50,378 nucleotides of DNA from Archangiaceae bacterium (GTDB lineage: Bacteria > Myxococcota > Myxococcia > Myxococcales > Myxococcaceae). Below are positions 27,241 to 31,693 of this stretch, one piece after another (the stretch's first letter is position 1; every line of letters starts with the position of its first letter). The translations under genes were made by a program, and so were the position numbers. The notes under the pieces were generated by a model that saw only the letters and a program-made list of their open reading frames with translations, was not told the DNA's origin and searched no databases. The DNA lies in contig JAACJQ010000364.1 of the NCBI GenBank assembly GCA_016879935.1, positions 1-50,378 of the forward strand, given 5' to 3'.

Positions 27241-27286
27241 CGTACGCGTGGCGGGGTAGCATGTGGGCTCTTCCCCGGAGCCCTTC

Positions 27287-29005
27287 ATGAATCGTCTGCT
27301 CGTCGGCTGTGCCGTCGTCTCGTTTGCGTTCGCGTGTCAGTGCGGTTCGCCACTTCCAGGTGACGGTGACGGTGGCGCAGGCGGCGACGCGAATACCGGC
27401 GGCGGCGTGTCGGGGACGGGTGGAGGCTCGGCGACAGCTGGCGGAGCCGCGATGGCTGGCGGCGCTGCGACGGCGGGTGGTACGGGCTCCTCGGGCGGCT
27501 CGGCCACTGGCGGAGGCAACACGCTGATGGACGGCGGCGTCTGTACGCCCGCAGGCCAACCGTGTGGACCAGGCACGAGCTGCTGCTCGAACGGCACGTG
27601 CGTCGCGGGGCTCTGCCGCGCGCAGTTGTTCTGCTCTCAGGCAGGCGTCGGCTGTACGGCTTCGAGTGAGTGTTGCTCGAACCGATGCTCGTCTGGCCAG
27701 TGCGCATCGCAGCAGTGCATCGCGACCGGAGCGGCTTGCACCAACGCTTCCGACTGCTGCACTGGGCTCTGCAACGGTACCTGCCAGGCCGTGCCGCGTG
27801 GAACGTGCAAGGTCGTCGGTGATTCGTGCACGGGCAACGGAGACTGCTGCTCGACGCTCTGTCAGAGCGGCGTGTGCCGTCGCGCATATTCGTGTCAGCC
27901 CAACGGAGACGTCTGCCGCTCGAACGCCGAGTGCTGCGGGCTGCGGTGCGGCGCGAACGGTGATGGTGGCGTGGGCCGTTGCCTCTTCATCACGGGCGGC
28001 GGTGCAGGCAGCTGCGTGCAAGAGGGCAACCCCTGCAACGACGGCTCGACGTGCTGCTCTCGAATCTGCTTCGACCCGGGCACCGGCGCGAAGGTGTGCC
28101 TGGGGGCAGGTGGCTGCCGCCTCACGGGCACGTGGTGCACCAACGACAATGAGTGCTGCGGCGGTGGCGTGAACCCGAACGGCAGCGTGCAGTGCTCGAA
28201 TGGGCGCTGTGACAACGGGCAGTCGTGCAACGGCGTCGGCAACATCTGTGGCCGCGCGAACCTGCCCGACGGCGGCTCGGTGATGATCAACGCCTCGATG
28301 AACTGCTGCGGTGGTGACGATGCGTGCAAGCTCGACCGCTCGGGCATTCCCCGCTGCTTTGGCGGGCCGCCGGGCAACATGTGTCCGTCGGGCTACACGG
28401 GCCAGGCGCCGTGCTGCATCGGCACGGGCGACGTCTGCCAGTTCCGCGATCAGTGCTGCAACGGTCAGCTCTGTCTGCCCGGTGACGGTGGCGTGCTGCG
28501 CTGTCAGGGCCTGACCTGCACGCAGGCGGGCGGAGCGTGCACCATGGACGCGAACTGCTGCGCCGGAACCGCATGCGTGCTCAACGTGTGCCGCCCGCCG
28601 GTGACGATGATGGATGCAGGCGTCACCCCGTCGGACGCCGGCACGACCGACGCAGGCACCGGCGGCCTCGATGCGGGCACGCTCTGCCGCGCGAACGGGG
28701 CTGGGTGTCAGTTCTCGATCGACTGCTGCTCGCAGGTCTGCACGAACGGCACGTGCGGCCCGGCGGTCGTCTGTCAGCCCGTCGGCGGAGCGTGTCGCGC
28801 GAACGCAGACTGCTGCTCGGGCTCGACGTGCACGATTCCGGCGGGGCAGCAGACCGGCTCGTGCAGCGCGTCGACGTGCGTCGCGCAGGGGCAGACCTGC
28901 ACTGCCGGCGGCCAGTCGTGCTGCTCGGGCCTGGGCTGCTACGACCCCAACTTCTTCCCCTGCTCGGGCTCGGGAACCTGCTCGTGCCGCTTCGGCATTC
29001 AGTGA
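27287..29005 (+). CDS. Lipoprotein built of ~13 knottin-like Cys modules
   Basis: The 572-residue protein starts at ATG 27287 (the upstream in-frame ATG at 27263 gives no signal peptide); signal MNRLLVGCAVVSFAFACQCG with lipobox FAFAC. A ~65-residue Gly/Ala/Ser linker leads to about thirteen repeats of the spacing C-x6-C-x5-CC-x3-C-x4-C. Module 2 is exact: CSQAGVGC, then SSECC, SNRC and SGQC. Modules 5-9 have longer loops. One Asp-Ala-Gly linker separates the last three modules. The spacing is that of inhibitor-cystine-knot peptides. The role may be structural or in surface recognition or predation; no enzyme is visible. Confidence 0.82.
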   Translation: MNRLLVGCAVVSFAFACQCGSPLPGDGDGGAGGDANTGGGVSGTGGGSATAGGAAMAGGAATAGGTGSSGGSATGGGNTLMDGGVCTPAGQPCGPGTSCCSNGTCVAGLCRAQLFCSQAGVGCTASSECCSNRCSSGQCASQQCIATGAACTNASDCCTGLCNGTCQAVPRGTCKVVGDSCTGNGDCCSTLCQSGVCRRAYSCQPNGDVCRSNAECCGLRCGANGDGGVGRCLFITGGGAGSCVQEGNPCNDGSTCCSRICFDPGTGAKVCLGAGGCRLTGTWCTNDNECCGGGVNPNGSVQCSNGRCDNGQSCNGVGNICGRANLPDGGSVMINASMNCCGGDDACKLDRSGIPRCFGGPPGNMCPSGYTGQAPCCIGTGDVCQFRDQCCNGQLCLPGDGGVLRCQGLTCTQAGGACTMDANCCAGTACVLNVCRPPVTMMDAGVTPSDAGTTDAGTGGLDAGTLCRANGAGCQFSIDCCSQVCTNGTCGPAVVCQPVGGACRANADCCSGSTCTIPAGQQTGSCSASTCVAQGQTCTAGGQSCCSGLGCYDPNFFPCSGSGTCSCRFGIQ

Positions 29006-29041: not shown

Positions 29042-29881
29042 ATGGCCGAGTCGCTCACGCCGCTGATTCAGACGCTGCACGACAGCGTCATGGTGCTCGC
29101 TCCCGGCGGGTGGACCGCCGTCGAGCTGAAGTTCGTGCGCAGTGGAAACGGGCTCAAGCTGACCGAGCTCGAGACCCGCGGAGAAGGCTCGAAGGCGCCG
29201 AAGCCGAAGCCCGAGCTGAACATCGACCCGCGCGCCGAAGCGCAGCGGTTGTCCGAGGGCGTCGCCGAGCTGGCCGAGCACCTCAAGGGCCGCTGGGAGC
29301 CCGGGAGCATCGTAGTGCAGCGCACGGCCGACTTCGCCGATTGGCGGCTGCTGCAGCCCGATCGCCAGCAGGCGTGGTTCACCCGCCTGCAGAAGGAACA
29401 CCTCGACTCGTTGCTGATGACCGACGCGCTGTTCGAGCTGATTCACGGCTCGCAGCGAGCGTTTCACGATCTCCAGCTGGGGCTCGAAGCGAAGCTGCGG
29501 CGCACGGTGGGCTTCTCGTTCGACCCCAGCGCGGGGATGTTGACGCTCCAGCAGGCCGAAGGCCCGACGCTGAGCGCTCCGGTGCAGGTGATCGCGCAGT
29601 ACTTCCCCGATGCGTTCACGTGGGCGTGGGGCTGGGCGTACGAGCAGCGGCAGCCGCAGACGGTCGAGCGCGTGAAGCGCATCTGCGCGCCCGAGGTGAC
29701 GCAGCCGGGGTTGTCGGCGCTGTGGCGCTCGGAGTTCCACTGCGACGAGGGCTTCGCGTGGGCCATCGCCGGGTCGATCGTCGTGCAGCTCGGCGCGCGC
29801 GGGGTGTTCCGGGCCGAGCTCGCCGATGGGGCCGGCGTCGTGTTCTTCGCGTTGATGAGCGAACCATCACCCGTGAGCTGA
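29042..29881 (+). CDS. Two-domain protein, possibly DUF6882/YezG-like
   Basis: The 279-residue cytoplasmic protein has an N-terminal half (LAPGGWTAVELKFV, later GSIVVQRTADFADWRLLQP) resembling YezG-type immunity-protein sequences. The C-terminal half, YFPDAFTWAWGWAYEQRQPQ with LSALWRSEFHCDEGFAWAIA, resembles DUF6882-like domains, which share a W-x-W-G-W core. Such proteins often occur near secreted toxins, but no toxin gene adjoins. I cannot give a function. It converges with the ATPase gene, with a 36-bp palindromic element between them. Confidence 0.65.
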   Translation: MAESLTPLIQTLHDSVMVLAPGGWTAVELKFVRSGNGLKLTELETRGEGSKAPKPKPELNIDPRAEAQRLSEGVAELAEHLKGRWEPGSIVVQRTADFADWRLLQPDRQQAWFTRLQKEHLDSLLMTDALFELIHGSQRAFHDLQLGLEAKLRRTVGFSFDPSAGMLTLQQAEGPTLSAPVQVIAQYFPDAFTWAWGWAYEQRQPQTVERVKRICAPEVTQPGLSALWRSEFHCDEGFAWAIAGSIVVQLGARGVFRAELADGAGVVFFALMSEPSPVS

Positions 29882-29885
29882 GAAG

Positions 29886-29921
29886 TGCAGGCAGAGTTGC
29901 CTGCAGGCAGAGTTGTCTGCA
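29886..29921. repeat. 36-bp double-palindrome element, copy A
   Basis: TGCAGGCAGAGTTGCCTGCA (29886-29905) overlaps by its final TGCA with a second, near-identical 20-mer (29902-29921) with one change. Each 20-mer is an inverted repeat of TGCAGGCA with a 4-bp centre. It lies between the ends of two convergent genes. A sister copy, 32 of 36 bases identical, is at 31562-31597 on the other side of the ATPase gene. Confidence 0.85.
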
Positions 29922-30012
29922 CGCGCTTCGTTCGTGCGGTCGCTCGACGCGACGAAAGGGATCGAGGCGGTCTGCTCGGGGACTTCGCTTCGATTCGTCG
30001 CAGGCGGTCGAG

Positions 30013-31557
30013 TCAGGGCCGCGCCGACAGCCACGCGAGCACGTTGGTCAGTTCGGCCTTCTGATCGAGCGTCACCTGCTTGCCGGAGCGCGCGCGGTTC
30101 GGGTCGAGGAACATGAGCTCGTTCTTCGGGCCCACCTGAGCGACGCACCAGCGCCAGCCGAACCGACCGGCGTCGGCCTCCATGCGTTGCCACGCGGCCT
30201 TCGACCATCGCAGGGGCAGGGGAGAGCGCTTCACCTGCACACCCAGCAGCGTGGCGCCCCGCGCCGCGAAGAGATCGAACGCGCCTCGCGACGCGCGTGA
30301 CTGATAGACGAGCTCGAAGCCCATCTCGGCCAGGCGCTCGGCGACCGCGAGCTCGGCTTCGTCACCGATCACCGACATCGGCACCACCGAGCCGCCCGGC
30401 CGCCGCCACCGCAGCCAGAGCGCGAAGGTCGGGTCGGACAGCTCGTACAGCCCATCGTCCCGCCGGACGGCGAGATCGCCCACGCGCTCGAGGTAGCGCG
30501 CCACCGAACCCGTCGACGCTCCGATGTGGTGGGCGACGTCGGTCGGCCGCTTCGGCCCGTCGGCCAGCGCATCGAGTGTCGCCGCGAGCGTCGAGGCCTG
30601 ACCCACCACCCGCTGGAACTCCCGCTCGAAGAAGAGCGAGAGCCGCCCCGTGCGACTGAACAACACGTCGGCCAGCACCGCGCGCACCGTGGCTTCGTCG
30701 AACGGCGGCTGGGCCTGCATCAGCTCTTCACCGACGACCTGCAGATAGAAGGGCTGGCCCCCGAGCAGCTCGGCGAGTCGGCGGGCGAGGGCGACGCCGA
30801 ACCCTCGCGCTGGCTTCGCGTTGCGCAGCAGCAGCGCCACCGCGTCGTCCAGGCCCATGGGCCCGAGCTCCATGAGGCTGAAGTGCTGGAAGAAGGGCGA
30901 GTTCTTCTCTTCGACGAGGCGGCGCAAGAGAGCGCGCTCGGAGCCCGAGACGAAGTACGTCGTGCGCTTGTGGCGCTGCCAGATGGCGCGTGCGAGCGGC
31001 AACACACCGGTCGAGCGGCTCGAGTCGAGGCGGCCGATCTCCTGAAACTCGTCCCACGCGACGACGCAGTGCACCTTCAGGGCCGTCGCGAGGCGATCGG
31101 CGAGGCCCAGCGCGAACTCGGCCAGCTTCTCGTCGGCCTTTCGTTCGGCCACGTCGAGGATCTCGGTGCGCAGGCCGCGATCCAGCCCCTGCCAGACCTT
31201 CGAGTCGCTCCACACGGCGCGGTAGGCCGAGGGCGTGCGGCTCAGGGCCAGCACCGACACCCCCAGCTCGTCGGCGAAGAAGGCGTCGAGGGTGCGCAGC
31301 GCGAGCCGGCGAAACACCTCGAAGCTCAGCGGGTGCTCTTCGAACGAGTCGAGCACCACGAAGCGCAGGCGCGGCGAGGCGACCCGGCGCTGCAGCTCGA
31401 GCATCAGGCTCGTCTTGCCCACCTTGCGGCTGCCGAGAATGGCGACCCATTGCGGTGCTCCGCGCATCAGGCGTTTCACGGCGCCTTCGAGCTGCGTCAG
31501 CTGCTGCTGGCGATCGAAGAAGGCGTCGGCCGTGGCGGGCGTGCTCGAGAAGAACAT
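30013..31557 (-). CDS. Archaeal-type STAND-like ATPase fused to PD-(D/E)xK-like nuclease domain
   Basis: The protein has 514 residues from ATG 31557. Walker A GSRKVGKT is at 42-49, Walker B CVVAWDEFQEI near residue 180, and sensor-like YFVSGSERALLRRL near 220. A winged-helix segment (PTDVAHHIGASTGSVARYLE) near 365-400 is followed by a C-terminal domain with fold-typical EAELAVAERLAEMGFELV, GAFDLFAARG and GVQVKRS, giving D-x15-QxK as in Mrr/PD-(D/E)xK variants. This is the PF01637-type ATPase layout with a DUF234/nuclease-like end. The 5' end abuts a double palindrome that occupies the Shine-Dalgarno position, and no SD is visible. Both flanks carry the same palindromic element. Confidence 0.82.
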   Translation of the reverse strand: MFFSSTPATADAFFDRQQQLTQLEGAVKRLMRGAPQWVAILGSRKVGKTSLMLELQRRVASPRLRFVVLDSFEEHPLSFEVFRRLALRTLDAFFADELGVSVLALSRTPSAYRAVWSDSKVWQGLDRGLRTEILDVAERKADEKLAEFALGLADRLATALKVHCVVAWDEFQEIGRLDSSRSTGVLPLARAIWQRHKRTTYFVSGSERALLRRLVEEKNSPFFQHFSLMELGPMGLDDAVALLLRNAKPARGFGVALARRLAELLGGQPFYLQVVGEELMQAQPPFDEATVRAVLADVLFSRTGRLSLFFEREFQRVVGQASTLAATLDALADGPKRPTDVAHHIGASTGSVARYLERVGDLAVRRDDGLYELSDPTFALWLRWRRPGGSVVPMSVIGDEAELAVAERLAEMGFELVYQSRASRGAFDLFAARGATLLGVQVKRSPLPLRWSKAAWQRMEADAGRFGWRWCVAQVGPKNELMFLDPNRARSGKQVTLDQKAELTNVLAWLSARP

Positions 31558-31561
31558 GAGG

Positions 31562-31597
31562 TGCAGGCAAGATTGCCTGCAGGCAGAGTTGCCTGCA
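31562..31597. repeat. 36-bp double-palindrome element, copy B
   Basis: TGCAGGCAAGATTGCCTGCA (31562-31581; 9-bp arms, 2-bp centre) overlaps by TGCA the 20-mer 31578-31597, which is identical to the first 20-mer of copy A. It begins 4 bases upstream of the ATPase start codon, so on the mRNA it would form a hairpin over the ribosome-binding region. On DNA it could be an operator. Confidence 0.85.
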
Positions 31598-31693
31598 ACG
31601 CCGTGGCGGCGGCGCCGCGCCCTTTGAGGTTGCGTCGGCCCACCGTGCGGTGTACCCGGCGCGCGCAACCCTCACGTCTTTCCGGAGTTCTCC

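Follow-up and report, generated by a model that had tools for sequence, protein, structure and literature searches.

The cassette gene and its flanking arrays

The window (the whole stretch of DNA that was analyzed, 50,378 nucleotides) contains a gene for a predicted ATPase-nuclease with a 36-bp element on either side of it (Table 1). The two elements are more similar in the direct than in the inverted orientation (0.89 vs 0.76), and each consists of two overlapping 20-bp palindromes, exactly as described in an earlier note made from this DNA alone, which had also given the positions and the degree of identity of the pair correctly. A better description than the double palindrome of that note is an array of four half-sites, GGCA/TGCC, with alternating orientation, 8-bp spacing and a 16-bp period, in which each 16-bp unit is palindromic and so is each unit-unit junction. 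The palindrome pattern has eight strand-counted matches in the window, compared with a mean of 0.09 and a maximum of 2 in shuffled sequences. At three or fewer mismatches the 20-mer occurs at only four positions of the entire genome (9.5 Mb), all of them in the two arrays at this gene, and it is not dispersed in the relatives either.

Only 4 nt separate the upstream array from the conserved ATG, so that it covers the ribosome-binding position as the earlier note had stated, and the downstream array lies 91 bp past the stop codon. As single strands, the two arrays fold into strong hairpins (z -3.1 and -4.1). An Rfam search of the arrays gave no match, and no sigma-70 promoter was found in the upstream region, a result that is uninformative at 70% G+C.

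Table 1. Features of the cassette locus (positions in the window).
Feature	Position	Strand	Remarks
Whole inserted segment	29882..31620	.	Limits taken from the comparison to loci without the gene, accurate to about 20 bp; both arrays inside
Downstream array	29886-29921	.	Direct repeat of the upstream array, 32/36; putative other cassette end
CDS, 514 aa	30013..31557	-	ATG 31557-31555, stop 30013-30015; M1-F2 start invariant in 15 homologs
Protein domains			Orc/STAND-type ATPase, residues about 1-300; winged helix, 322-385; Hjc-like PD-(D/E)XK nuclease, 398-514
Predicted recognition helix of the winged helix, residues 349-358	30484..30513	-	From AlphaFold2 (AF2) secondary structure; R354 codon 30496-30498
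Upstream array	31562-31597	.	GGCA/TGCC half-sites, four at 8-bp intervals in alternating orientation; putatively the operator and one cassette end

Domain structure of the protein

The Pfam profiles AAA_16 (PF13191) and ATPase_2 (PF01637) matched all 15 members of the group described below, the window protein included (counted at E <= 0.01), the latter scoring above the cut-off of PF13191 and 0.6 bit below that of PF01637; the nSTAND2 profile was matched in 13/15 members. Sequence profiles for the nuclease domain were matched less often, PDDEXK_5 in five of the 15 members and Hjc in one. The AF2 model of the window protein has a mean pLDDT of 82. Its first 384 residues have their best structural matches in 2QEN (Z 27.3 over 328 residues) and 2FNA (Z 25.8 over 314 residues), both of which were also recovered by a profile search of the sequences of solved structures, and the next matches are Orc/Cdc6 and NLR proteins. 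Residues 398-514 match Hjc Holliday-junction resolvases (Z about 15, 1.9-2.5 Å over 112-115 residues).

The ATPase_2 domain has Walker A and B motifs and is followed by a winged helix, as in the ATPase_2/archaeal STAND-type proteins, and the Hjc fold carries the catalytic D and the (E/Q)xK motif (D428, Q441 and K443) of the Hjc-like PD-(D/E)XK nucleases. The protein belongs to the ATPase_2/STAND group and has an Hjc-type nuclease. The Walker and nuclease residues G47-K48-T49-S50, D169-E170, E402, D428, Q441 and K443 are invariant in the 15 homologs, and the dN/dS ratio of the gene is 0.15-0.39, so that its function is maintained by selection. An NCBIfam scan of the protein gave only a sub-threshold match, Pfam and NCBIfam scans found no known transposase (DDE, HUH, serine or tyrosine), and PADLOC PDC-S27 matched weakly (1.8e-6) and only to a part of the ATPase.

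Distribution of homologs

Full-length homologs, 15 including the window copy, are distributed patchily in 10 of the 96 genomes of the family, and the other 14 are 44-62% identical to the window protein. The carriers include two public MAGs with the labels Myxococcaceae and Archangiaceae. Elsewhere among 195 genomes of the phylum, a single truncated copy passed the E 1e-20 threshold, beside weak partial matches. This copy (L064, G056:C42; 226 aa, 57% identical), which comes from a different family of the same order, has no array and is probably a decaying remnant. A scan of genome contigs found two loci, both already in the set, and no homolog was matched in the plasmid (72,556 records), phage and viral collections.

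The tree of the 15 homologs is divided into three clades, all fully supported: six sequences form clade I, six clade II and three clade III. Genome G065 holds three paralogs, one per clade, and G000 (that of the window), G064 and G066 hold two each. No genome has two copies of the same clade, an exclusion that is suggestive only (permutation P = 0.075).

Conservation of the arrays

In 15/15 full-length homologs, the 65 bp that precede the start codon contain an array with a 16-bp period. The arrays were scored with the half-site left free, that is, no half-site was assumed, and 6000 windows served as the background. Twelve of the 15 upstream arrays, that of the window among them, scored 16/16, as did none of the background windows; two clade-I arrays scored 14, which is reached by 2.9% of the background windows, and these have the same place and the same half-site as the others. 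The half-sites obtained by this free scoring follow the clades: the six clade-I arrays all have GGCA, the six clade-II arrays AGCA and the three clade-III arrays TACA.

A second array past the stop codon was found in six copies (G000a, which is the window copy, G066a, G015, G065a, G065b and G064b) and was unrecognizable in the other nine. The downstream arrays have the half-site type of their own gene and are always closer to the upstream ones in the direct than in the inverted orientation; in G065a, the two arrays are identical over 35 bp. When the array patterns were searched alone in the 96 genomes of the family, they were found only at these genes, except for one match in G076, which is likely due to chance.

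In the multi-copy genomes (G065, G000, G064 and G066), each paralog keeps an array of its own type, so that the binder of the array is linked to the gene, and the encoded winged helix is the simplest candidate. Only three alignment columns, 93, 146 and 354, are fixed within and different between all three clades. The last of these, residue 354, falls within the predicted recognition helix; it is R, G or N depending on the clade, and the first base of the half-site is G, A or T; this apparent match rests on three clades, that is, on two changes on the tree. The agreement of half-site and clade in 15/15 copies, along with residue 354, favors the idea of the earlier note that the encoded winged helix binds the palindrome, and we consider it highly probable that the protein binds its own array. 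Binding sites of a host factor were also considered for the arrays and were rejected, since paralogs in one genome carry different arrays.

Insertion sites and boundaries

Gene-free counterparts of the window site were found in two genomes of the same genus (G006:C30 and G001:C132), which align with the window up to position 29865 and resume at 31621/31623; the window flanks are directly adjacent there, with 8 and 16 bp between them, and both arrays are absent. Gene-free sites also exist for the cassette common to G003 and G000b (G006:C79 and G001:C198), and the G066a cassette is absent from the otherwise collinear site in G064 (G064:C1176). The G003 copy lacks a downstream array, and its right boundary immediately follows the stop codon. 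In the clade-I cassettes G015, G065a and G066a, homology starts and stops at the outer edges of the arrays and the flanks are unrelated. As in insertion sequences, terminal repeats bound the mobile unit; they are direct, not inverted, and were seen in 6/15 copies. The gene-free sites showed no target-site duplication, but the relatives are only 75-85% identical, which blurs the junctions and limits this result. G066:C21 shares the left flank of G065a up to 6 bp from the array but not the right flank, and was therefore rejected as a complete gene-free site.

In all, about ten distinct sites are occupied. Some of them are common to different species (G003/G000b; G066b/G064b; G067/G021/G065b), so that part of the history is vertical. 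The values of dS between the copies, 0.5-0.8, indicate that the moves are old, and the base composition of the cassette is not distinct from that of the flanks. Loci with and without the gene thus compare as the earlier note would have it for a mobile cassette, with both arrays missing from the gene-free sites and the homology of related cassettes ending at the outer array edges. Judging from these comparisons, the array and the gene are nearly certain to be constantly linked, to have been inserted as a unit and to have the arrays as the ends of this unit.

Proposed mechanism and alternative explanations

We propose that the locus is a self-contained mobile cassette of about 1.65 kb with the structure array - gene - (array), and that the protein binds its own arrays both as the operator and as the ends; we hold the chances for and against this proposal to be balanced. 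Through its winged helix the protein would recognize the half-sites of the array beside its gene, with a specificity to which residue 354 contributes, and it would probably do so as an ATP-dependent oligomer that extends along the series of alternating half-sites. By binding at the upstream array it would repress or tune its expression from its own promoter; such autorepression is somewhat favored. With arrays at both ends, the protein would bring the ends together and the nuclease would cut at them, its substrate perhaps being extruded hairpins or four-way junctions between or within the arrays. This last point is speculation: hairpin formation by the arrays is possible, and a four-way junction would be a suitable substrate for an Hjc-like nuclease. 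The cut would free the cassette or copy it to a new site. That the mobility is driven by the cassette's own nuclease is a tentative suggestion. Several observations speak against the proposed scheme: the downstream array is missing in 9/15 copies, so that two ends are not always kept; two same-clade copies never occur in one genome, unlike what is seen for an active insertion sequence; no target-site duplication is visible at the blurred junctions; the moves are old; the match of half-site and residue 354 stands on two changes on the tree; and four relatives have a cytochrome-type gene at the window's site.

The strongest alternative is a gene that is autoregulated, perhaps defensive and carried passively, for example, a STAND-type phage-defense nuclease. 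The gene would have been transferred horizontally and moved by general recombination, not by its own nuclease; the upstream array would be its operator, and the downstream array a by-product or a DNA-looping site. The upstream array is indeed universal, whereas the downstream one is found in 6/15 copies only; the ATPase has a STAND/NLR-like fold, with the nSTAND2 matches and the weak PDC-S27 match mentioned above; and no genome has more than one copy of any clade, within the limits of the permutation P = 0.075. However, neither a unit delimited on either side by the edges of the arrays nor the matching half-site and the direct orientation of the downstream arrays follows from this explanation, and an unsystematic look at the sites recognized no co-transferred defense island. 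We regard it as a real possibility with less than even chances.

If the gene were ancestral, not mobile, and had been lost many times, the sites common to different species would be expected, but the gene occupies about ten unrelated sites and the homology of the flanks breaks at the arrays. Moreover, G066a groups with G015 from another genus and not with G065a from its own genus (the support of this fork being only 89/84), and finding one clade at different sites within one genus largely contradicts such a history, which we consider improbable. Instead of being DNA sites, the arrays could also act in the transcript, as hairpins at its 5' and 3' ends that serve as an attenuator, in stability or as a nuclease target. 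The palindromic arms do change together between the clades and the hairpins are strong, but the strict 8-bp alternation runs across the outer spacers, as expected of DNA half-sites, and a residue of the DNA-reading helix tracks the array sequence; together with the negative Rfam result, this makes the RNA explanation very improbable. A REP/REPIN-like dispersed repeat flanking the gene by chance, another suggestion of the earlier note and one that fits palindromic, intergenic elements paired around one gene, was rejected as having a negligible chance, given that the only four 20-mer units in 9.5 Mb are all at this gene, that no dispersed copies were found in this genome or in 95 relatives, and that the gene and all other members have no HUH/Y1 transposase domain according to Pfam.

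Comparison with known systems

The ATPase and winged-helix core of the cassette protein is the same as that of the archaeal ATPase_2 proteins 2QEN from Pyrococcus abyssi and 2FNA (SSO1545) from Sulfolobus solfataricus, but the solved chains of these stop after the winged helix, whereas the cassette protein adds a fused Hjc-like nuclease, and the gene a cognate array. The C-terminal domain shares its fold and the E...D-(12)-QxK arrangement of the PD-(D/E)XK core with the archaeal Hjc resolvases; the Glu of the Hjc ExK motif is replaced by Gln in all 15 cassette proteins, and the cassette nuclease is fused to an ATPase and a winged helix. We know of no arrays beside hjc genes. Orc1/Cdc6 and the iteron-binding replication initiators likewise combine an ATPase with a winged helix recognizing short DNA repeats (Z about 15-21 for the fold), and plasmid rep genes have arrays beside the gene itself, as the cassette gene does; the cassette differs from them in its fused nuclease, in showing no sign of a replicon and in having no match in the 72,556 plasmid records.

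Among mobile elements, the Tn7-type systems with TnsC (AAA+) and TnsA (PD-(D/E)XK) share with the cassette an ATPase, a restriction-like nuclease and repeated end sites (fold Z about 14-15 for TnsC), but the cassette has a single gene, no DDE transposase and no target-site duplication that could be seen. A classical insertion sequence has a known transposase; the cassette has none and so is not a member of this group. REPIN/RAYT systems (Bertels and Rainey 2011, PMC3116915) also have palindromes around a single nuclease-type gene, but the cassette arrays are not dispersed and the nuclease is of the PD-(D/E)XK and not the HUH type.

A single-gene mobile cassette with repeat ends is of a known kind, and the cassette is categorically new only if the ATPase-nuclease moves it. 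In that case, it would represent a new class of transposable elements, in which an Orc/STAND-type ATPase fused to a Holliday-junction-resolvase-like nuclease reads the end arrays and moves the cassette without a known transposase or recombinase, with at least three specificities coexisting in one genome; we consider this rather doubtful. A transposition machinery would then have arisen from a replication-initiator-like ATPase and a junction-resolvase-like nuclease. A word search of the open-access literature yielded no description of such a cassette, which does not prove that none exists. Structures have been solved for proteins of this ATPase group, but to our knowledge there is no consensus on what they do. 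For the cassette protein, the sequence itself shows which DNA is the partner; three specificities and one candidate residue for setting them are available, and the function is therefore directly testable in terms of binding, specificity swap, autoregulation and movement.

Genes adjacent to the cassettes

At the window's cassette site, between the orthologs of the window gene at 29042-29881 and ndk, four relatives (G002-G005; L089-L092) have a cytochrome-c-type (CxxCH-bearing) gene of about 1.6 kb, and G001 and G006 have neither this gene nor the cassette. Genes seem to turn over at the intergenic site beside ndk, and the cassette may have replaced something instead of entering an empty gap.

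Directly downstream of the cassettes of G067 (L055) and G064a (L057), the upstream flanks of which differ, there is a gene of about 0.9 kb that looks LysR-type on inspection. It is absent after the related cassettes of G021 and G065b and may have travelled with the cassette. Directly after the G066b cassette (L061) there is a stretch of approximately 0.7 kb with a toxin-antitoxin-like pair, identified by eye, and at the same site in G064b (L062) this stretch is absent and the second array is found instead. In the window, the convergent neighbor of the cassette is a DUF6882 protein (29042-29881), adjoined by a cysteine-rich repeat protein with many CC blocks (27263-29005).
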